A stretch of 10,956 nt of DNA from positions 1 through 10,956 of the forward strand of contig CAKUKT010000058.1 in the NCBI GenBank assembly GCA_934663655.1, given 5' to 3'. Source of the DNA: an uncultured Victivallaceae bacterium. GTDB lineage: Bacteria; Verrucomicrobiota; Lentisphaeria; Victivallales; Victivallaceae. The translations under genes and the position numbers were made by a program. The first letter of the stretch is position 1. Each line of letters begins with the position of its first letter. Below, one piece after another: positions 1,659 to 10,956 of this stretch. Below the pieces are notes generated by a model. The model worked only from the letters and a program-made list of their open reading frames with translations, was not told the DNA's origin and did no database searches.

Positions 1659-2639
1659 ATGGATAACGGCAAAATTCTTCTCGGATTTGATATCGGCGGC
1701 ACCAAGATCGGCATCGGACTGGGCGATGACTCGGGCCGCATTCTCGGCAAGGCGCGCATAGAAAACGTCAACACCGACCCGGATGACATTCTGCCGCAGC
1801 TGGTATCGGAATCCGGGCGTCTGGCGGCAGAGGCGGGAATCTCCATGAATCAGATTGCGGCGTTCGGGATTTCCGCGCCGTTTCCCGCCGACGCCGCCAA
1901 CGGCATAATGACGGCGCCGACCAACAATCCCAAATGGCGCAACGTGCCGATTCTCGCCTACCTGCGCGACAAACTGCGCCTTGAGGGCTGTTTTGAAAAC
2001 GACGCCAACTGCGGAGCGCTGGCGGAATGGTTTTTCGGCGCGGGGCGGGGATGCAGCGACATCGTCTACCTTACATTGAGCACCGGTATCGGCGCCGGTA
2101 TCATCGCCTCGGGGCGACTGGTGCGGGGTGGAAGCGCGCTGAGCGCCGGAGAAATCGGTCACGTCTGCATCCAGCTTGACGGCCGCAAATGCAACTGCGG
2201 GATGCACGGCTGCTATGAGGCCTACGCCGGCGGCCGGGCTCTCGCCCTGCGGATGCGCGAGGAACTGGCGGATCAGCCCGAAAGCATGATCATGCAGCTG
2301 GCGGGAGGGAATCCGGAAAAGATCGACATGCTGGTACTCGAAAAAGCGGTGCGCGCCGGTGATCCCTATGCGACGGGACTTTGGGAGGAGATGAGCATCC
2401 GCAATGCGCAGGCGTTCGGTCTGCTGATCAATTTCCTCAATCCGCAGCGGATCATCATGGGTACATTCGGGTGGGCGATCGGCGATCTTTTCATCGAGCC
2501 GATCCGCCGTCATCTGCCGCGCTTCTGCTGGCCGGAACCGCTGGCCGCCTGCGAACTTGTCAACAGCGAACTTAAGCGTGACATCGGCTGTTACGCCGGA
2601 ATTGCCGCGGCGCTCAATTATCTTCAGGAAAAGCGTTGA
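1659..2639 (+). CDS. ROK-family sugar kinase (glucokinase/N-acetylhexosamine kinase type)
   Basis: This 326-residue protein is a complete ROK kinase, which transfers phosphate from ATP to a hexose or N-acetylhexosamine in the cytoplasm. In order it shows the N-terminal phosphate loop DIGGTK (11-16), the sugar-binding and catalytic segment ENDAN with the likely general base Asp115, a second phosphate motif STGIGAGI (141-148), and the ROK zinc site: GEIGH with His168, then CNCGMHGC with Cys178, Cys180 and Cys185, followed by the usual E. There is no N-terminal helix-turn-helix, so it is a kinase and not a NagC/XylR-type repressor. The start ATG has a weak GGAAA about 8 bases upstream. It leads an operon: the next gene begins at or just after its stop. 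Glucose is the commonest substrate in the family, but N-acetylmannosamine, fructose or allose kinases look alike at this level. Confidence 0.9.
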   Translation: MDNGKILLGFDIGGTKIGIGLGDDSGRILGKARIENVNTDPDDILPQLVSESGRLAAEAGISMNQIAAFGISAPFPADAANGIMTAPTNNPKWRNVPILAYLRDKLRLEGCFENDANCGALAEWFFGAGRGCSDIVYLTLSTGIGAGIIASGRLVRGGSALSAGEIGHVCIQLDGRKCNCGMHGCYEAYAGGRALALRMREELADQPESMIMQLAGGNPEKIDMLVLEKAVRAGDPYATGLWEEMSIRNAQAFGLLINFLNPQRIIMGTFGWAIGDLFIEPIRRHLPRFCWPEPLAACELVNSELKRDIGCYAGIAAALNYLQEKR

Positions 2640-2641
2640 CA

Positions 2642-3328
2642 ATGTCGGAAAGCGGTTCGGGCGAAGCCGGAAAAGCGGCGCCTCTCCGGAGACGCCGGTG
2701 GCTGATCGTCGCGGCGGTGATCGTCGCGGTGATTGTGGCGCTGTTTCTGGTGTTGATTCCCGGCTGCCGCCGTGATTATTCGCTGCCGCCGGTTCCCGAG
2801 GCGTGGGAGACCGAGGCGCTGATCGGCTTGACCATGCGCGTCAGCAAAGCGATGTTTGACCGCAACGGCAAGCCGGCGCAGCGCGCGGAGATCGAACTCA
2901 GTGAAGCGGAAATGAATGCCGCCATCCGCAACGGGCTGCGTTTCGCGTTCAAATATGCCGCCCATCCGGCCCGGGAACTGCCGTCGATACGGGCGGTATG
3001 GCGCAAAGGAGCCATCGATGCCGATATTTCGGCTCCGCTCTGGCCGGTGGGCGCGGTGAATATTTCGCTGCGGCTGATTCCGGAATATGCTGACGGTGAA
3101 TTTCGTTTTGCGGCCCGGGAGATCCGGGTCGGCCGGCTGCCGGTGCCCTCGGCGACAACCAGCCGGCTGCTCAACCGCCGACTGGCGGCGGAGGTGCGCA
3201 ACCGCCCGGAACTGGCGACGGCCCTGAAGGCGGTTGAAAGCATGACCCCGCTGCCCGATGGAGGTCTGAAGGTGGTTTTCAATCCCCGGCAGGCGGCAGA
3301 GATGTTGAACTTTCTCTTCCGGCGGTAA
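2642..3328 (+). CDS. Single-pass membrane-anchored protein of unknown function
   Basis: I do not recognise a family with confidence. The 228-residue product has a basic N-terminus (RRRRW at 16-20), one strong membrane segment (about 20-40), then Gly-Cys at 41-42 and a soluble domain that should lie outside the cytoplasm. The P-G-C junction is a poor lipobox, so a plain membrane anchor is more likely than a lipoprotein. The exported part has a segment IELSEAEMNAAI followed by alternating beta-type stretches (ISAPLWPVGAVNISLRL, then a long helix near 170-200), a layout reminiscent of YpmS-like exported domains; this likeness is weak. An in-frame TTG at 2636 overlaps the ROK stop and has AGGA at a better distance (6 bases against 12 for the ATG), which would add two residues. 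Either start implies translational coupling to the ROK kinase. Confidence 0.75.
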   Translation: MSESGSGEAGKAAPLRRRRWLIVAAVIVAVIVALFLVLIPGCRRDYSLPPVPEAWETEALIGLTMRVSKAMFDRNGKPAQRAEIELSEAEMNAAIRNGLRFAFKYAAHPARELPSIRAVWRKGAIDADISAPLWPVGAVNISLRLIPEYADGEFRFAAREIRVGRLPVPSATTSRLLNRRLAAEVRNRPELATALKAVESMTPLPDGGLKVVFNPRQAAEMLNFLFRR

Positions 3329-3357: not shown

Positions 3358-4101
3358 ATGGAACCGGGAAAAGTTGACCTGCATTGTCATCTTGCCTATG
3401 GAGTAAGCGACGGTCCGCCCGAACCGGAAATTTCGCTGCGGATGATCGACGCGGCGGAGGCGGCGGGGGTGAAATACATCAATGCGGTGGCGCACAGCGG
3501 GCCGTGGTTTGACGAAGTGAGGGCGGCGGTGGAGTTTCTGCGCGGCAGAACCGGCGGAAAAATTGAACTCCACCCCGGAGTGGAATATGATTTCGACGAC
3601 CTTTCGGCGGCGGAGTTCGTGCCGGTGACGGTGGGGGATAATTCGCCGTTTTTCCTTCTGGACTTCAATTCGCGGGTGCTTCCTCCCGAGGCGGGAGTCC
3701 GGTTGGCGGAACTGGCGGCGCGGGGTTACCGGGCGATTGTGGTGCATCCGGAGGTGTTGTTCGGGCCGTCGGAGGTGGCGACTCTGGCGGGGCTGCGGGA
3801 AAGCGGGGCGCTGTTTCAACTCAATGCGGCGAGCTTTCTGCCGGAGGCAAGCGGGGGCGTCCGGAACATGGCGGTGAAACTTCTGGAAGCCGAACTCGGT
3901 GATATGATCGCCTCGGATGCTCATCGTGACCGGGGGCGGCGGCGTTATGCGATCGCCGAAGCGGGACTCAGGGTGTCGAAACGTTTCGGCGCGGAAGCGG
4001 CAGAAACCCTGTTCTCCGGCAACCCGGCCCGGGTACTCCGCGGTGAAGAACCGGAACGCCCACGCCTGCGCCGTCGGAAATTTTTCGGTCTTTTCTCCTG
4101 A
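3358..4101 (+). CDS. Divergent PHP-domain phosphatase, CpsB/YwqE tyrosine-phosphatase-like
   Basis: The 247 residues follow the layout of the metal-dependent PHP phosphatases of the CpsB/CapC/YwqE group, which dephosphorylate tyrosine-kinase-linked capsule or exopolysaccharide regulators. Visible elements are DLHCH (7-11) followed by GVSDG (15-19), His46, HPGVE with Glu76, HPE (130-132), QLNA (154-157), SDAH (186-189) and the C-terminal LFSGNPARVLRGE. Metal-binding His and Asp positions are therefore present. Several family residues differ: the usual DDG is SDG, TPHH is AVAHS, and the HPER Arg is Val133. The start has GGAG 8 bases upstream, and the gene lies 29 bases after the membrane protein in the same operon. 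No tyrosine kinase or capsule gene is visible in the window, so the substrate is unknown. Another small-phosphoester PHP hydrolase is possible. Confidence 0.8.
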   Translation: MEPGKVDLHCHLAYGVSDGPPEPEISLRMIDAAEAAGVKYINAVAHSGPWFDEVRAAVEFLRGRTGGKIELHPGVEYDFDDLSAAEFVPVTVGDNSPFFLLDFNSRVLPPEAGVRLAELAARGYRAIVVHPEVLFGPSEVATLAGLRESGALFQLNAASFLPEASGGVRNMAVKLLEAELGDMIASDAHRDRGRRRYAIAEAGLRVSKRFGAEAAETLFSGNPARVLRGEEPERPRLRRRKFFGLFS

Positions 4102-4226: not shown

Positions 4227-5603
4227 ATGAGGTTTTTTTTCACCCTGTTGTCGGCGGGAGCGCTGTTTCAGCTGCTTGCTGCCGGAGAATTTTCCTATCG
4301 TTTTACCTCGAACCGTCCGGAGGCGATCTACCAGATCGGCGAAAATATAACCTTTTCGGCCCAGCTGCTGGAGGACGGGCAGCCGGTGTCCGGCCGTCGG
4401 GTGAACTACGAACTGGTTGGAGACGGCGGACTGGAAAAGAAGGGATCGTTTATCTCCTCGGCGGAAAAACCGTTTGAGATCAGTTGTTCGCTGGACTATC
4501 CCGGAGGGGTGCGGTTGCTCTGCCAGCTGCCGGGAGAGGACGGCAAGGCGCTGGATGTGACCAATCCGGCGACGGGGGCGAAGAATGCGAAATCGGTCGG
4601 CATCGGCGCGATGGTCGCTCCGGAACAACTTCGTCCGGCGGTTCCGTGCCCGGACGATTTCGATGAATTCTGGAACCGGCAGCGTCGGCTGCTCGAGGCG
4701 GTTCCGATCCGGGCCGACCGCCGGGAGATCAAACTTCCGTCGGGGCTCTCGGGTTATGCCGACAAAGTCAAGGCTTACGATGTGAAGGTGGACTGCGCCG
4801 GTTCAATGCCGGTTTCCGGACGGCTGGCGATGCCGGCGGATGCGCCTCCCCGGAGCGCGCCTGCGTATGTAAGTTTTCACGGGGCGGGGGTGTACAGTGC
4901 GGGGATCCGGGCTGATCTCGCAGCGATGGGAGCGATCGCGTTTGACGTCAACGCGCACGGGATTGACAACGGACTCTCATCGGAGGCCTACCGGAAACTT
5001 GCCGCCGGAGAATTGAAGGGCTACATGGGACGCAACGCCGATGATCCGGAAAAATATTATTACCGTGACATGTACCTGCGGGTGCTCCGGGCGCTCGATT
5101 ACGTAACCAGTCTGCCCGAATGGGACGGCAAGACCCTGATTGTCAACGGCGGCAGCCAGGGAGGGGCGCAGGCGATCACGGCGATGGCGCTCGATCCGCG
5201 GGTGACGCTCGGCGTCGCCAATTTCCCGGCGCTGACCGATCACCCCGGCACCCTGGCCACGCCGCCCCGTCAGGGGGGCTGGCCGCGTCTCTATCGGGCG
5301 GATAAGGACGGAAAGCCGAATGATCCGAAGCGTTTCCGGACTGTGCAATATTACGACGGGGTGAATTTCGCTCCGCGCATTCACTGCGAAGTCTATACCG
5401 CAACCGGTTTCGTCGATCTCTCGTGCCCGCCGACGGGGACGATGGTGTTCTACAACGAACTTGCTTCTGAAAACAAACATCTGGAAACCTATCCCCAGCT
5501 CGGCCATCACTCCAAAGCCGGCAATGCCGCGGGACGGGCCAGAATCAGTGAGTGTATCCGCAATGCGGTGGCGGAGGCCGCAAAGCTGCGCGAAGCGAAG
5601 TAG
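4227..5603 (+). CDS. Secreted acetyl-xylan-esterase-like (AXE1/CE7-type) alpha/beta hydrolase
   Basis: A 458-residue exported esterase, expected to remove acetyl (or similar) groups from glycans or oligosaccharides. Residues 1-20 form a signal peptide (hydrophobic core after MR). Residues 21-125 form a beta-rich N-terminal domain, shared with the next gene. The AXE1 catalytic domain begins with PDDFDEFW (142-149), typical of the family. It carries FHGAG (217-221, oxyanion region), the nucleophile Ser310 in GGSQGG, the likely acid Asp397 in GFVD, and the likely catalytic His427 in GHH. Two of the three classical CE7 motifs differ: RGQG is replaced by NAHGIDN (242-248), and HE by HH. GGAGG stands 5 bases before the ATG. 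It is about the same length as its paralogue downstream, which begins 53 bases after its stop. The substrate cannot be read from sequence; cephalosporin-C deacetylase or other short-chain esterase activity is possible. Confidence 0.85.
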   Translation: MRFFFTLLSAGALFQLLAAGEFSYRFTSNRPEAIYQIGENITFSAQLLEDGQPVSGRRVNYELVGDGGLEKKGSFISSAEKPFEISCSLDYPGGVRLLCQLPGEDGKALDVTNPATGAKNAKSVGIGAMVAPEQLRPAVPCPDDFDEFWNRQRRLLEAVPIRADRREIKLPSGLSGYADKVKAYDVKVDCAGSMPVSGRLAMPADAPPRSAPAYVSFHGAGVYSAGIRADLAAMGAIAFDVNAHGIDNGLSSEAYRKLAAGELKGYMGRNADDPEKYYYRDMYLRVLRALDYVTSLPEWDGKTLIVNGGSQGGAQAITAMALDPRVTLGVANFPALTDHPGTLATPPRQGGWPRLYRADKDGKPNDPKRFRTVQYYDGVNFAPRIHCEVYTATGFVDLSCPPTGTMVFYNELASENKHLETYPQLGHHSKAGNAAGRARISECIRNAVAEAAKLREAK

Positions 5604-5656: not shown

Positions 5657-7030
5657 ATGAACTGGCGACGAACTCTTCTGATGTTGGCAACGGCGCTGTT
5701 GTCGCTGCCGCTGTTTTCTGCTGAAACCCGGACCAAACCGGTGTTTGAACTCACGGTGAACCGTCCGGACGGGATATTTTCTCCCGGAGAGGAGATTGTG
5801 TTTACGGCACAGCTGCTTGAGGATGGTCGTCCGGCGACGGGATATCGGGTGGACTACACCTTTGTGATGGACAAGACCGGAGAGGAGTCGGGAACGTTTC
5901 AGGTATCCGACACGCCGTTTATGTTCCGGACGAGCCGGGATACCCCCGGCTGGTGCTGGATCAAGTTCGTCGCCCGGGACTCCGAGGGAAAAGAGGTCGA
6001 ACTCTACGATCCGCGGATCCGGCGCAACGTGAAGTTCTCCGCGATCGGCGCGATGGTCGATCCGCTCAAGATCAAGGCTCCGGTGGGGCCGCCGGAAGAT
6101 TTTGACGCCTTCTGGGACCAGCGGCGGCGGCTGCTGGATATGACGCCGTGGCAGGCGACCCGCACGGAAGTGGAAATGCCGGAACAGTTCCGCGAATACG
6201 CCGACAAACTCCGGGTTTACGACATCACCGTGGATTGTCCCGGCAGCCGTCCGGTCCGGGCGGTGCTGACGGTTCCGCGCGACGCCCGGGACGGGGAGAT
6301 GCCGGTGATCGTGAATTTCCACAGTTACGGAGTCTTCAGTGCGCGGCCGATGATATATTTCGCGCTGCGCGGCGCGGTGATGCTCGATGTGAATGCGCAC
6401 GGCATCGATAATTTTCAGAGTGACGAATACTACGCTCAGCTGCGCAGCGGCGAACTGCGTAACTATGTCGCCCGGGGAGTGAAAACTCCGGAAACCTACT
6501 ATTTCCACGATATGTATCTGCGGGCAATGCGGGCCATGGATTACGCGAAGAGCCTTCCGGAATGGGATGGCCGCCGGCTGATCGTGACCGGCGGCAGCCA
6601 GGGCGGGGCGCAGGCGATTTTTGCGATTGCGATGACACCTGAGGTGACGCTCGGCATGGTGGATGTGCCGGCGATGCTCGATCACCAGGGAGCGCTGGCG
6701 ACGCCGCCGCGAACCCCGGGCTGGCCGCGGCTCAATCTGGCGCTGAAGTCGGACGGCACGTTGCCGAATCCGGAGGCGGCGCGGACGCTCTCTTATTTCG
6801 ACGGGGTCAATCTTGCCGGCAGGATCAAATGTGACATGTATCTGTGCACCGGCTGGGTCGATCAGTCGTGCTCGCCGTGCAGTGTTTACGCGTTTTTCAA
6901 TGCGCTGCCGGGCACCAACAAGCTCATCACCACTCATCCGGAGGGGGGGCACGGAGCCACGACCAACGGCAACCGGCCCGGGGTGGCGCGAATCGAGGAA
7001 TATATTAAACCGAACCAGGAGGAAAAATGA
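5657..7030 (+). CDS. Second secreted AXE1/CE7-type esterase, paralogue of the preceding gene
   Basis: This 457-residue paralogue has the same order of parts: signal peptide 1-22 (likely cut after FSA), a beta-rich N-terminal domain (about 27-130), PEDFDAFW (146-153), FHSYG (221-225), NAHGIDN (246-252) in place of the CE7 RGQG motif, GGSQGG with the nucleophile Ser314, GWVD with Asp402, and His432 in GGHG instead of the usual HE. The open frame extends upstream to 5552, but ATG 5657 is preferred because GAGGTG lies 6 bases upstream and the signal peptide starts there. Its stop TGA (7028-7030) overlaps the ATG of the next gene (ATGA), and the next gene's Shine-Dalgarno is inside its last codons, so the two are translationally coupled. 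A decayed copy of its 3' end occurs further downstream. Confidence 0.86.
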   Translation: MNWRRTLLMLATALLSLPLFSAETRTKPVFELTVNRPDGIFSPGEEIVFTAQLLEDGRPATGYRVDYTFVMDKTGEESGTFQVSDTPFMFRTSRDTPGWCWIKFVARDSEGKEVELYDPRIRRNVKFSAIGAMVDPLKIKAPVGPPEDFDAFWDQRRRLLDMTPWQATRTEVEMPEQFREYADKLRVYDITVDCPGSRPVRAVLTVPRDARDGEMPVIVNFHSYGVFSARPMIYFALRGAVMLDVNAHGIDNFQSDEYYAQLRSGELRNYVARGVKTPETYYFHDMYLRAMRAMDYAKSLPEWDGRRLIVTGGSQGGAQAIFAIAMTPEVTLGMVDVPAMLDHQGALATPPRTPGWPRLNLALKSDGTLPNPEAARTLSYFDGVNLAGRIKCDMYLCTGWVDQSCSPCSVYAFFNALPGTNKLITTHPEGGHGATTNGNRPGVARIEEYIKPNQEEK

Positions 7031-7572
7031 TACCGAGTGACCATTTCGTGCGCTTCTACAATGAAGTCTTTAAATTTCTTGATGAAAAGGGCGCGTTGAA
7101 ACCCTACTACGGGGAGATCGCGCGCCACCAGGAACTTCATTGTCTGGAGACCTTTACCCGCAACGGGCTGCGGGGCATGTACGATTACTGGGAACATATC
7201 CGGATCGAAGAAAATTGCGACATGGTGCTGACTCTCCATGAACACATGCTGGAGTCGCACATGAGGAAGTGTCCGAGTCTCTCCAAGGTGATCGACAACG
7301 ACGCCGGCCCCTGCCTGCGTTACTGTGAACACTGTCCCGGATGGGTCTTCCCGCTGCTGGCGAAGTGCGGATACTATTCGGTCTACGATCTGGTCAGCCT
7401 GACCGAACCGGAATGCCGGGAATACATCTTCGACAACCGCGCCGATGCGGAAGCAAAATGGCGGGAACTGACCGCCGGTGACCGGGATCAAACCCGGGTG
7501 CGGAATAATTTCGCCTACTTCGACCAGAAGGACGCGCCGGCGGCGGTCGACGGTTCCGGCGCGAAGAAATAA
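6773..7572 (+). repeat. Tandem duplication, unit A (esterase 3' end plus small Cys/His gene)
   Basis: This is the intact member of a tandem pair with about 7690-8458. The small genes align over almost their whole length. The junction 6985-7016 is identical over 32 bases to 7892-7923, and similarity continues upstream into the last third of the esterase gene. The 5' boundary is approximate because the other unit is decayed there. Confidence 0.75.
7027..7572 (+). CDS. Small Cys/His-rich protein of unknown family, copy 1
   Basis: I do not recognise a named family. The 181-residue product has no signal peptide or membrane segment, so it should be cytoplasmic. It has eight cysteines (39, 64, 82, 96, 100, 103, 114, 130) and a histidine cluster H71, H73, H78 just before C82. 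The core CPS...CxxxCxxCPGW (82-106) looks like a metal or Fe-S ligand set, or a redox/thiol site; this is inference. The rest is mostly helical with many aromatic residues. AGGAGG lies 4 bases before the ATG, which overlaps the upstream esterase stop by 4 bases. The second copy further downstream is identical at about 85% of the first 150 positions, and all eight Cys and the three His are kept, so they are likely functional. The polar tail after about 150 is variable. Confidence 0.82.
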   Translation: MIPSDHFVRFYNEVFKFLDEKGALKPYYGEIARHQELHCLETFTRNGLRGMYDYWEHIRIEENCDMVLTLHEHMLESHMRKCPSLSKVIDNDAGPCLRYCEHCPGWVFPLLAKCGYYSVYDLVSLTEPECREYIFDNRADAEAKWRELTAGDRDQTRVRNNFAYFDQKDAPAAVDGSGAKK

Positions 7573-7689
7573 CCGGAACGCGGGCGGGGAAAAACATTCT
7601 GTTTCGCGAGGTCGGCAAGGAAACGGTAAAAATAATATTGAAGGTTCCGTTGGAGATATCAGCAACGGCGATGACGCTGTCGGTGGTGG
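7573..7689. other. Non-coding stretch after small gene copy 1
   Basis: No gene, clear promoter or terminator is visible in these 117 bases. A short A+T-rich run (about 7627-7637) interrupts the G+C-rich background. A weak resemblance of 7668-7690 to an internal part of the esterase gene (near 6645-6670) suggests that the decayed copy may extend further left with internal deletions. Confidence 0.4.
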
Positions 7690-7937
7690 AGCGCCACCTG
7701 CGCTCTCTCTGACGGACTCGATTTTACAGAGAGAATCACAAGAGACGCTTTCATCTGTATATCGGTGGGATAGATCAGTTGGCTTCGGGTGCGGAGTTTA
7801 CGCATTTTTCAACGCGTTGCCGGGAGCCGGGCAAGGTGCCCCCAATCCGGGGCGGGCGGAAGACCGCAACCAGCGGCAGCCGGCCGGGAGCGGCGCGAAT
7901 CGAGGAATATATTAAACCGAACCGGGAGGAAAAATGA
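7690..7937 (+). pseudogene. Decayed 3' fragment of a third AXE1/CE7-type esterase gene
   Basis: The sequence matches the last part of the esterase gene ending at 7030. In one frame from about 7705 it reads LSDGLDFTERITRDAFICIS, to be compared with LSYFDGVNLAGRIKCDMYLC. In another frame it reads CGVYAFFNALPG against CSVYAFFNALPG. The last stretch, 7892-7923, is identical to the parent over 32 bases but now out of frame (TAA at 7913-7915). A TAG interrupts the first frame at 7771-7773, where the triad Asp segment GWVD should be. The segment 7766-7933 is 5 bases shorter than its parental counterpart (6854-7026), and the rest of the gene, including the GGSQGG nucleophile, is missing. It cannot make an active enzyme. 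The shared SVYAFFNALPG block makes it closer to the second esterase than to the first. Confidence 0.82.
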
Positions 7938-8458
7938 TACCGAGTGACCATTTCGTGCGCTTCTACAATGAGGTCTTCAAATTTCTCGATGAAAAGAATG
8001 CTTTGATTCCCTATTACCGGGAAATTTCGCATCATCAGGAGCTCCACTGTCTGGAAACCTTTACCCGCAACGGACTGCGGGGCATGTACGATTACTGGGA
8101 TCATATCCGGATCGAGGAAAACTGCGATCTGGAACTGATGCTGCACGAGCATTTGCTGGAGTCGCACATGAAGAAGTGTCCGAGCCTCTCCAAGGTGATC
8201 GACAACGACGCCGGCCCCTGTCTGCGTTATTGTGAACATTGTCCGGGGTGGGTCTTCCCGCTGCTGGCGAAGTGTGGATACTATTCGATCTACAATCTGA
8301 TCGGAATGAGCACGCCGGAGTGCCGGAAATATGTTTTCGACAACCGTGCCGATGCGGAAGCAAAATGGCGGGAACTCTCCAGCAGCGGTTCGGATACTTC
8401 GCTGTTGCGGAACAACTTCGAACTGGTCGACGGAATCCCCGCGGAGACGGTGAAGTGA
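7934..8458 (+). CDS. Small Cys/His-rich protein of unknown family, copy 2
   Basis: This 174-residue paralogue of the product at 7027-7572 is also unrecognised at family level. All eight cysteines and H71, H73, H78 are at the same residue numbers, and residues 81-110, which include the CPS...CxxxCxxCPGW core, are unchanged. Differences cluster at 121-130 and in the C-terminal tail, where this copy ends about seven residues earlier. The bases after its stop (8460-8496) resemble the end of copy 1 and would read GGSGAQEEAAM in another frame, against VDGSGAKK, so the tail may have been cut by a frameshift. GGGAGG lies 4 bases before the ATG. It is preceded by the dead esterase fragment, so it is no longer coupled to a live esterase; transcription probably reads through from upstream. 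Confidence 0.82.
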   Translation: MIPSDHFVRFYNEVFKFLDEKNALIPYYREISHHQELHCLETFTRNGLRGMYDYWDHIRIEENCDLELMLHEHLLESHMKKCPSLSKVIDNDAGPCLRYCEHCPGWVFPLLAKCGYYSIYNLIGMSTPECRKYVFDNRADAEAKWRELSSSGSDTSLLRNNFELVDGIPAETVK

Positions 8459-8595: not shown

Positions 8596-9999
8596 ATGTG
8601 GAAAAGAGTGCTGGGCGCCGCAGTGGCGTTGATGGCGTTTGCCGCGGCGGCGGGAACGCAGGCCGATGCCGACCGGGAAAAGATCAGCGAACACTTCAAA
8701 AGCCGCCAGTCGGGCAACTGGACGTGGGTGTTCTATGGGGATTCGATCACCCACGGAGCCGCTCACACGAAAGGGTGGCGCAGTTTCGTGGAAATCTTTC
8801 AGGAACGGGTCCGTTACGAACTCGGCCGGCCGATGGATGCGGTGATCAATTCCGGCAACAGCGGTCAGACGAGCGTCAATTTGTTGAACGACAATCAATA
8901 TCAGTGGCAGGTACGGCGTTTCAAACCCGATGTGGTGCTGATTCTGATCGGCTGCAATGATATTGTAAGGAAGGAAGCCGGGGGAGTGGAGGATTTCCGG
9001 ACGCGGCTGGAGGCGCTGGTGAACCGGGTTCGCGCCGATGGAGCGATTCCGGTGCTGCAGACCTACAACACGATTCAGCTGGTCGAGAATCCCACCTCCG
9101 AATACCTGCAGGGTTACGTCAAACGTTACCATGAATTTCCCGCCTACAACCAGGTGATCCGCGACACCGCGGAAAAACTCGACGTGCTGCTGGTGGATCA
9201 TACCCGGCACTGGGAAAAGAACGCCGCGGATCCGGCGGTGCTCGACTTCTGGCTCGGAGAAACCATCCATCCGGGACCGCGGGGGCATCAGGAGATGGCG
9301 GTGGAGATCTTCAAAGCGCTGGACATGTACGCGCCTTCGAGCAAGTGCAGTACGCTGGAGGCGGGAGGACCGGCCCCGGCGGCGGAGCGGAACAGCGGAA
9401 TGAATCTCGACATGTTCTCGCAGGTCGGGAAGTGGGCGATCGACTATTCGGCAGAGAATGGTCTGCCCCCGGCGGATCTGTGGAAAAACGGTTATCCGGC
9501 CGGACGGGTTTCGATCGTCGAACGTGACGGCGGCAAAGCGCTGCGGGTGGACAGTTCGGGTCTGGCGGCGGCGCTGTTCAGCTTCACTGACCGGAAGCTC
9601 ATCGGTTCGCTCTCCGGGACGGTGCTGATCGAAATGGAACTGGCGCTGCCGGAAGCACCGGCTGATCCCAAGATGGGGAGTCAGTTTTATTTCGCCTTTT
9701 CCGGCGGCGGCGACCGGATGGTGCAGTCGATCATCGCGCTCGGCAACAGCAGTTGCGGAGGAAGTTTCGGCGGGTGTTCCTTCGGGCCGATCCCCTACGG
9801 GCAGTTTTTCAAGGTGAGAATTGCGCTGGATCTGGAGAATAGTTCCGGAGCACTCTGGATCAATGATCAGAAATTCGTCAAGAGCAGGCTTGCCCCGATG
9901 ACCAAAGTTGCCGACTACCTCTACTTCGGTGACGGCGGCAAATCGGTGGACGGCAAATTTGAACTCCGCAGCCTGCGGGTGGGCGCGATCGGCAAGTGA
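8596..9999 (+). CDS. Secreted SGNH/GDSL esterase with C-terminal beta-rich domain
   Basis: A 467-residue exported esterase of the SGNH hydrolase fold, likely acting on acetylated or acylated carbohydrate. Residues 1-24 are a signal peptide (MWKR, then an Ala-rich core). The SGNH blocks are present in order: GDSITHG with the nucleophile Ser50, NSGNSGQ with the oxyanion Gly (85-91), GCND with Asn121, and ETIHP with His225. The Asp normally three residues before the His is Glu222, a conservative change. Residues from about 270 to 467 form a separate domain rich in beta strands and aromatic residues (YFAFSGGGD, LDLENSSGALWINDQ), which resembles concanavalin-like/LamG-type modules. It may bind glycan; that is inference. 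AGGAGA lies 8 bases before the ATG. The next gene overlaps its stop by 4 bases. Confidence 0.87.
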   Translation: MWKRVLGAAVALMAFAAAAGTQADADREKISEHFKSRQSGNWTWVFYGDSITHGAAHTKGWRSFVEIFQERVRYELGRPMDAVINSGNSGQTSVNLLNDNQYQWQVRRFKPDVVLILIGCNDIVRKEAGGVEDFRTRLEALVNRVRADGAIPVLQTYNTIQLVENPTSEYLQGYVKRYHEFPAYNQVIRDTAEKLDVLLVDHTRHWEKNAADPAVLDFWLGETIHPGPRGHQEMAVEIFKALDMYAPSSKCSTLEAGGPAPAAERNSGMNLDMFSQVGKWAIDYSAENGLPPADLWKNGYPAGRVSIVERDGGKALRVDSSGLAAALFSFTDRKLIGSLSGTVLIEMELALPEAPADPKMGSQFYFAFSGGGDRMVQSIIALGNSSCGGSFGGCSFGPIPYGQFFKVRIALDLENSSGALWINDQKFVKSRLAPMTKVADYLYFGDGGKSVDGKFELRSLRVGAIGK

Positions 10000-10956
10000 T
10001 CAGAAATCTTTTCATTTTTTTGCTGCTGATTTTCGCGACCTCGTTTGCCGCGACGGCGGAATCGAAGGCGTTTGCCGCCTCCCGCCCCGAAGTGGCGGTG
10101 GTGATTGATTTTACCAATTACGTGTTTTTCGACTCGCGCGGCAACGGGGAAATCTACCCGCTGCGGGTTTACGAGGAGCGGCTGCGTGAACTTGCTTCGC
10201 TCGGTATCGGGAAATTTTATCTGCGGGTCAATGTCTACGGGTTATCGCTCTATCCGAGCCGGGTAACCGGGATTTACGGAACCCATTTCGGGCGGCACCG
10301 CTATTACGGAGAGAACGACCCCGGCAGTCGGCTTGCCCGTACGCTTGAGCTCTACAATCCGCTGCTTGAAACCATCCGGATCGGCCATCAGCTCGGTGTG
10401 GAGGTCTGGGCCTGGGAGAGCCTCTTTGACGATGCCGGAAATCTGTTCCGACTCTCTCCGGAACACGACCCCGTCTGGGTGAGCCGTTATGGTGAATACC
10501 CGCTGATGTCACCGTTTTTCCGCCGGAATCCGGGCTATTATGCGATGCGGTCGCCGGCAGGAGATACCACGCGTCAACTTTTCGCGCAGCGCAACCGGGA
10601 GGCGGAGGACCGGATCATCGGCCGGATCGTCGTGATCAGCGGAGCGGATTCGTCGCCACTTGAGCTTTCGCGGGAGCAGCTGGTGATTTTCACCGGTTCG
10701 GACAACCACAATTACCAGCGTTACACCGGACCGGTGGAACTGTCGGTGTTCCGGGCCAATGATCGCAATATCGTCGTGCTCGATCAATTGGAGATCCCCG
10801 AACGGTTCGTGAAGTTCGGCATTCTCAATCCCTCCGGGGAGGAGGGAGGAGCGCTGATACTGGCGGGCAACCGGGGGACGAGCCGGGTGTTCGACCGGGA
10901 CGGCAAAATGATTCCGGCGGTATGGGGGGTGGAGGAGGTTCCGGCCGACCGGGAAG
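9996..10956 (+). CDS. GTG-initiated secreted protein, probable TIM-barrel glycan-active enzyme, cut by right edge
   Basis: The frame is open from GTG 9996 to the window end, 320 codons, with no stop. The GTG shares four bases (GTGA) with the stop of the SGNH gene, so translation is coupled. Residues 1-21 make a clear signal peptide (MIRN, then FIFLLLIFATSFAA). The mature part starts with a strand-helix pattern, VAVVIDFTNYVFFD, then RLRELASLGIGKFYLRVNVYG, later LLETIRIGHQLGVEVWAWESLFDDAG (split here: Leu123 to Gly135, then Glu136-Val-Trp-Ala-Trp-Glu141). This resembles the first strands of (beta/alpha)8 barrels of putative glycoside-hydrolase-like proteins. After about residue 220 there is beta-rich sequence. 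No catalytic pair can be named from what is visible. The gene is easy to miss because of the rare start and the missing 3' end. Function is inferred from context and fold pattern only. Confidence 0.72.
   Translation, partial: MIRNLFIFLLLIFATSFAATAESKAFAASRPEVAVVIDFTNYVFFDSRGNGEIYPLRVYEERLRELASLGIGKFYLRVNVYGLSLYPSRVTGIYGTHFGRHRYYGENDPGSRLARTLELYNPLLETIRIGHQLGVEVWAWESLFDDAGNLFRLSPEHDPVWVSRYGEYPLMSPFFRRNPGYYAMRSPAGDTTRQLFAQRNREAEDRIIGRIVVISGADSSPLELSREQLVIFTGSDNHNYQRYTGPVELSVFRANDRNIVVLDQLEIPERFVKFGILNPSGEEGGALILAGNRGTSRVFDRDGKMIPAVWGVEEVPADRE

Follow-up and report, generated by a model that had tools for sequence, protein, structure and literature searches.

The contig CAKUKT010000058.1 of an uncultured Victivallaceae bacterium (10,956 nucleotides, hereafter the window) carries at positions 7027 to 7572 an open reading frame (ORF) for a small cysteine-containing protein, here called B. 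B belongs to a widespread but unnamed protein family whose members are usually encoded directly downstream of a second small protein, A, to which B is homologous as judged by profile comparison. The explanation we favour, while stopping somewhat short of calling it probable, is that A and B form a heteromer which has a metal site of Cys4(-His) type and acts in the metabolism of sialic-acid-like 2-keto sugar acids. On this view, B is a subunit in a module made of two proteins, A-B.

The B family and its partner A

Homologue searches with B returned 1035 proteins at E ≤ 1e-3, ruling out a chance ORF; the best 120 of the 1035 all lack a Pfam domain. Because of these homologues, and because nonsynonymous divergence (dN) between the two B copies in the window is 0.12 at a synonymous divergence (dS) of 0.55, the ORF is regarded as coding. 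An earlier note, made from the window's sequence without database searches, had suggested an undescribed family and proposed profile searches. Searches of Pfam, NCBIfam and PDB sequences with B yielded no accepted match and no strong match to a characterised family, only nothing or weak sub-cut-off matches in few members that were taken as chance, and the family is apparently undescribed in these libraries. Among the papers listed by literature searches, none was seen to describe an A-B pair, the family having no name to search by. Among 398 Pseudomonadota genomes, B was matched in the centre genome only. In agreement with the earlier proposal of a protein lacking an export signal, no hydrophobic segment was found in residues 1 to 40 of B, where a crude 15-residue hydropathy maximum is 0.09 compared with 1.45 and 1.89 in two esterases of the window, and B is predicted to be cytoplasmic. 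One member (P0333) has a long C-terminal extension, 385 residues in total, with a weak match (25.5 bits against a cut-off of 27) to LPD3, a type of domain known from mobile elements; this protein could be an assembly artefact.

Residue conservation was counted in two sets of B sequences. The first has 212 members, made up of 92 from genomic loci (both window copies among them) and the 120 best database matches, and is partly redundant and biased to near relatives; the second consists of 8 divergent B sequences from a class survey. Besides M1, the residues Y11, E13, F15, E61, E62, C82, S84, Y99, C100, H102, C103 and C130 are invariant in all 220. Window B has eight cysteines, all common to its second copy. 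They had been described as fully conserved, which is correct between the two copies but not across the 212 sequences, where C82, C100, C103 and C130 are found in 212 each, C64 in 210, C39 in 173, C96 in 169 and C114 in 39. The core of the family is CPS...YCxHC...C, with four invariant cysteines and a nearly invariant fifth, C64, which is kept in 0 of the 8 divergent sequences. A reading as an eight-cysteine ferredoxin- or zinc-ribbon-like protein was rejected, as three of the eight cysteines are variable and no such family scored above cut-off. A preceding HxH....H run, also taken as conserved, is kept between the window copies but not across the family: H71, H73 and H78 occur in 21, 34 and 25 of the 212 sequences. 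The invariant histidine is H102, within YCxHC. C82, C100, H102, C103 and C130 form a deeply conserved set that would suit a metal or Fe-S site, as the earlier note had anticipated.

From a genome scan, the best 80 of 173 loci were kept, mainly from Lentisphaeria and Kiritimatiellae and also from Phycisphaerae and Alphaproteobacteria (Devosia, Kaistia, Planktomarina, SAR11), giving 81 sources with the window. Genes were called by a composition- and codon-based caller with two profiles; B was called in 77 sources, and the four in which the caller missed it (L032, L037, L044, L064) are left out of the 77 loci used below. Protein A, with ~148 residues, is present in 73 of the 81 sources. It lies directly upstream of B in 69 adjacent same-strand pairs, 39 of which show an exact 4-base overlap, the commonest A-B junction. 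In four of the eight sources without A, the contig ends at B (L051, L065, L075, L080; L075 keeps a truncated end of A), and the genomes of L029, L031 and L055 match A elsewhere, L029 with a partial match of 45 positions. In the six frames of the window, the only match to A was a weak one that fell on B; the species may carry A elsewhere. Among 98 genomes of the class, B was matched in 25, A in 22 and both in 21 (20 without a weak cross-hit in G308), some matches being partial (Fisher p = 3e-15, counts entered by hand). A divergent A-B pair, with the two genes adjacent, occurs in seven of them.

The homology of A and B is indicated by reciprocal profile matches (A profile on B up to E 9e-9, B profile on A up to 4e-6) and by hhalign, which aligned A with B at E 3.4e-5, and at E 1.4e-6 over 128 columns with deeper alignments, whereas nine unrelated neighbour families scored 0.076 or worse. 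An A-B fusion was sought and not seen among the best 120 of 189 matches to a joined A+B query, where only proteins of ~177 to ~563 residues could appear. In A, D13, F14, H15, E72 and C92 are invariant in 193 core and 7 divergent sequences. H11 is present in 184 of the 193 (the other 9 being gaps) and in 7/7 divergent A, while C110 (190/193) and C138 (189/193) are both lost in 7/7.

Predicted fold and candidate metal site

Modelling firmly assigns A to the TRAPPC3/V4R/H-NOX-type fold, a two-layer arrangement of N-terminal helices and a four-stranded sheet. For B, an AlphaFold2 model (pLDDT 88.9, pTM 0.84) is suggestive of the same ligand-binding fold; fold families missing from the structure-match lists are not thereby excluded. 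The modelled overall fold is shared, more securely by A than by B, with TRAPPC3/Bet3 and Thorarchaeal TRAPPC3, which are dimeric, and by analogy with TRAPP-fold proteins A and B may assemble as a heteromer. Unlike TRAPPC3, to which they show no sequence match, A and B occur in bacterial metabolic loci as a paralogous gene pair, and any equivalence of the cysteine positions is putative. Among the fold neighbours, TRAPP and BcsD have roles in structure or assembly, and a Zn site can be purely structural, as would fit a TRAPP/BcsD-like non-catalytic scaffold or carrier organising the enzymes of the locus. We consider such a role quite unlikely, since the strict acid and histidine sets (H11, D13, H15 and E72 in A; E13, E61, E62 and H102 in B) suggest more than scaffolding.

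Relatives detectable by sequence all fall below curated cut-offs. Pfam scans gave no V4R (PF02830) match for A or B, and hhalign of A gave nothing against V4R (0.053) or DUF6125 (0.63). ATC_hydrolase (PF14196), likewise a small protein of the superfamily with a CP...C...C pattern, weakly matches 12 of 26 A members (best E 2.9e-4; 20.2 bits for A of locus L001 vs a gathering threshold of 28.1) and does not match B. The MsvR model NF053755 has sub-cut-off matches in 21 of the 26 (best E 1.4e-5), with A of L001 reaching 21.8 bits against a cut-off of 220 and covering only model positions 100-194 of 236. A also aligns with the C-terminus of nine SufR-like proteins, themselves sub-cut-off matches to TIGR02702, at E 9.5e-4 over 128 columns that include D-x-H and three cysteines, each kept in 189-193 of the 193 core A sequences; two of the three are lost in 7/7 divergent ones. 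In case of B, hhalign gave nothing against ATC, V4R and DUF6125 (E 0.26-0.36) and 0.032 against the SufR-like C-terminus.

The MsvR and SufR links would be expected if A-B were a ligand- or redox-sensing module, namely a C-terminal sensor of SufR/MsvR type that has no DNA-binding domain and acts by modulating an enzyme or regulator encoded nearby. Further, 4 of the best 120 A proteins carry the JGI label 'predicted ArsR family transcriptional regulator'. However, Pfam and NCBIfam scans found no bacterial DNA-binding domain in A or B, the MsvR match misses the N-terminus, the loci can have regulators of their own (GntR in L005), and the A-B genes lie among enzymes, with B fused to a DUF386 domain in some proteins. 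A-B thus differs from V4R proteins (the phenol sensors MopR, PoxR and DmpR, and MsvR) in lacking a DNA-binding or AAA+ domain, and from SufR in lacking a winged helix, in its linkage to metabolic genes, in the two cysteines missing from divergent A and in the mere E 0.032 of B. We regard the sensor as unlikely.

In the B model, C82 lies between strand 74-81 and helix 83-90, C100, H102 and C103 start helix 99-113, and C130 starts strand 130-135. These modelled elements are comparable to those bearing known cysteine sites in the TRAPPC3/V4R-type fold. Thor TRAPPC3 holds Zn on four cysteines, such sites tying the sheet to helix D (PMC10933270), DmpR holds Zn on C151/E172/C177/C185 (PMC7264223), Rv1460, a homologue of SufR, carries an Fe-S cluster and requires C203/C216/C244 (PMC6034842), and the V4R cysteines of MsvR are implicated in redox-dependent DNA binding (PMC3729527). 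By analogy, the pair probably holds a metal atom, in B at a candidate Cys4(-His) site. The four invariant cysteines and H102 would bind Zn most likely, possibly a [4Fe-4S] cluster, and the metal may link the last long helix with the beta-sheet and so give a pocket its shape.

With a SufR-like cluster, A-B could instead be a [4Fe-4S] redox or dehydratase-like enzyme that makes a 2-keto-3-deoxy acid for an aldolase. The spacing of C110 and C138 in A (28) equals that of C216 and C244 in Rv1460 (PMC6034842), the four invariant cysteines of B include a CxxC, and many hosts are, to judge by record titles, gut or rumen Lentisphaeria and therefore probably anaerobes. On the other hand, C92 and C110 are 18 apart compared with 13 for C203 and C216, divergent A has lost two of the three cysteines, the family extends to Alphaproteobacteria, among them Devosia and SAR11, and the known cysteine sites of this fold also hold Zn. 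An Fe-S enzyme is distinctly unlikely in our judgement.

Genes around the A-B pair

For eight families, genes within three of B (344) were compared with genes farther away (426) in the 77 loci; most families were chosen after clustering had been seen, and related loci are not independent. Near B, enrichment was found for DHDPS/NanA-type aldolases (36/344 vs 9/426, p = 7e-7), NagA-like deacetylases (15/344 vs 0/426, p = 5e-6), BNR sialidase-like proteins (29/344 vs 8/426, p = 2e-5), aldo-keto reductases (10/344 vs 1/426, p = 0.002) and SSF symporters (10/344 vs 3/426, p = 0.02). SDR (24/344 vs 27/426), GDSL (5/344 vs 3/426) and AXE1 (2/344 vs 2/426) genes were not enriched. At least one aldolase, NagA or BNR gene lies within four genes of B in 56 of the 77 loci and none in 21. 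The neighbour aldolase, whose nearest solved relatives are DapA/NanA-type enzymes, keeps Y130 and K158, aligned with the catalytic Tyr and Lys of DapA, and also adjoins the divergent A-B pair in two of eight loci (L131, L132). The neighbour deacetylase matches NagA at E 5e-32.

A second line of evidence comes from DUF386 (PF04074), the family of YhcH, also named NanQ. In three proteins of 312-322 residues (P0344, P0346, P0348), possibly descended from one fusion event, B is fused to this domain, which is confined to the region after the B part (residues 167-321, 180-318 and 172-303), towards the C-terminus; Pfam scans found no DUF386 match within B itself, and YhcH is a separate family. Separately encoded DUF386 genes occur in L024 and L041, four or five genes away from B. 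Like the candidate B metalloprotein, E. coli YhcH is small and contains Zn, and it serves the NanA aldolase by supplying the open form of N-acetylneuraminic acid (Neu5Ac) (PMC8141875).

These neighbours are consistent with A-B acting on a sialic-acid-like 2-keto-3-deoxy sugar acid or a close product beside the NanA/DapA-type aldolase, perhaps as a metal-dependent hydrolase or isomerase alongside YhcH-type anomerases. The earlier suggestion that B acts on a product of glycan breakdown is possibly right in this respect. A more specific version seems to us somewhat unlikely. In it, A-B is a new metalloenzyme, an obligate heterodimer of V4R-fold paralogues (H-x-D-F-H site in one, Cys4-His site in the other). 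It would perform a missing step by which Lentisphaeria, Kiritimatiellae, Phycisphaerae and Alphaproteobacteria catabolise sialic-acid-like sugars, and its fusion to a YhcH anomerase could feed the aldolase. At the genome level, two results do not strengthen the link to sialic-acid-like sugars: NeuB matches of at least 100 bits are no commoner in B-positive genomes (8/25 vs 23/73, p = 0.57), and DUF386 is near universal in the class sample (83/98), which makes its co-occurrence uninformative.

Nonulosonic-acid biosynthesis was rejected as a general context: the gene directly after B is a NeuB gene in L042 (named by Pfam and by an NCBIfam match above cut-off) and in L065 (BLAST cluster), yet the genome-level association is missing. 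In these two loci (L042:10505-13963, L065:639-4454), A-B precedes NeuB together with genes resembling CMP-nonulosonate cytidylyltransferases, which are PseF-like but score below cut-off. A large conserved locus surrounds A-B in Devosia, Planktomarina and SAR11 (L062, L063, L071, L078), with HpcH aldolase, D-serine dehydratase-like, RidA-like, SDR, Gfo/Idh, BNR, PhyH and M81/MlrC genes, assigned by Pfam for some genes of L063, L071 and L078 and by eye for the rest. One transporter encoded near A-B in Devosia (L063:11614-13902, 762 residues) combines an MFS domain with HEAT repeats in a single protein.

The earlier note had coupled B to a secreted esterase, with the two proteins produced together. 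The ATGA overlap of the B start with the stop of the AXE1-family ORF is exact, the esterase tail was duplicated along with B, and the wider Devosia locus holds an AXE1 gene six genes upstream of B (L062, L063). An AXE1 gene within three genes of B is found in 1 of the 77 loci, namely the window itself, without enrichment (near vs far p = 0.60), and a family-wide linkage was rejected; the second B copy was retained while its esterase tail decayed. A functional tie between B and the secreted esterase, with B taking up or sensing its product, is therefore very improbable and, as a family property, largely refuted. Since the usual partner is A and the commonest A-B junction is likewise a 4-base overlap, joint production with the esterase is a local arrangement, in which the esterase stands where A usually stands.

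Duplicated B genes in the window

A second B copy, missed by the earlier note, lies downstream of the first (Table 1). The duplicated block (6840-7469 and 7753-8376) is 83% identical by blastn, and the two B proteins share 138 of 172 aligned residues. Given this 80% protein identity and the dN and dS values above, both copies are probably under purifying selection. Copy 1 starts with ATG preceded by AGGAGG (7017-7022). Copy 2 has no intact esterase neighbour; an intact ribosome-binding site (GGGAGG, 7924-7929) lies upstream of it within the scar region 7573-7937. Copy number varies elsewhere, with one to three copies per locus, three of them in tandem in L023:8977-10489, and up to five matches per genome (G012). 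In the window, B thus lacks an adjacent A, is duplicated and has secreted esterases for neighbours, from which the sugar may come.

Table 1. Features of the window around the two B genes.
Feature	Position	Strand	Basis
B copy 1, 181-residue protein of the unnamed B family	7027..7572	+	ORF and homologue search
B copy 2, 174 residues, 80% amino acid identity to copy 1	7934..8458	+	dN 0.12, dS 0.55
AXE1-family esterase, secreted, overlaps B by 4 bases	5657..7030	+	PF05448 E 7e-44
Further secreted AXE1-family esterase (context)	4227..5603	+	PF05448 E 3.6e-43
Secreted GDSL/SGNH hydrolase (context)	8596..9999	+	PF13472 E 5.9e-25
ROK-family sugar kinase (context)	1659..2639	+	PF00480
CpsB/CapC-like protein	3358-4101	+	
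Decayed esterase 3' end preceding B copy 2, scar of the tandem duplication	7753..7937	+	blastn 83%; esterase frame lost
C82 codon, B copy 1 (CPS motif; modelled start of helix 83-90)	7270..7272	+	212/212 and 8/8 divergent
C100-x-H102-C103 codons, B copy 1 (modelled start of helix 99-113)	7324..7335	+	Cys and His 212/212 and 8/8
C130 codon, B copy 1 (modelled start of strand 130-135)	7414..7416	+	212/212 and 8/8 divergent

The ROK kinase scored below cut-off with all NCBIfam models, which did not distinguish NanK, NagK and glucokinase. Two further proteins (9996-10956 and 2642-3328) have a hydrophobic N-terminal segment and match no Pfam or NCBIfam family at E ≤ 1e-3.

In conclusion, a family that is strongly conserved but unnamed, with more than 1000 proteins, would gain a fold and a partner as well as a pathway and a hypothesis for a metal site. 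If the favoured explanation is true, A-B would be a bacterial, heteromeric and likely catalytic relative of the TRAPP/V4R proteins, and would add a new step to the handling of sialic-acid-like sugars by gut and marine bacteria.
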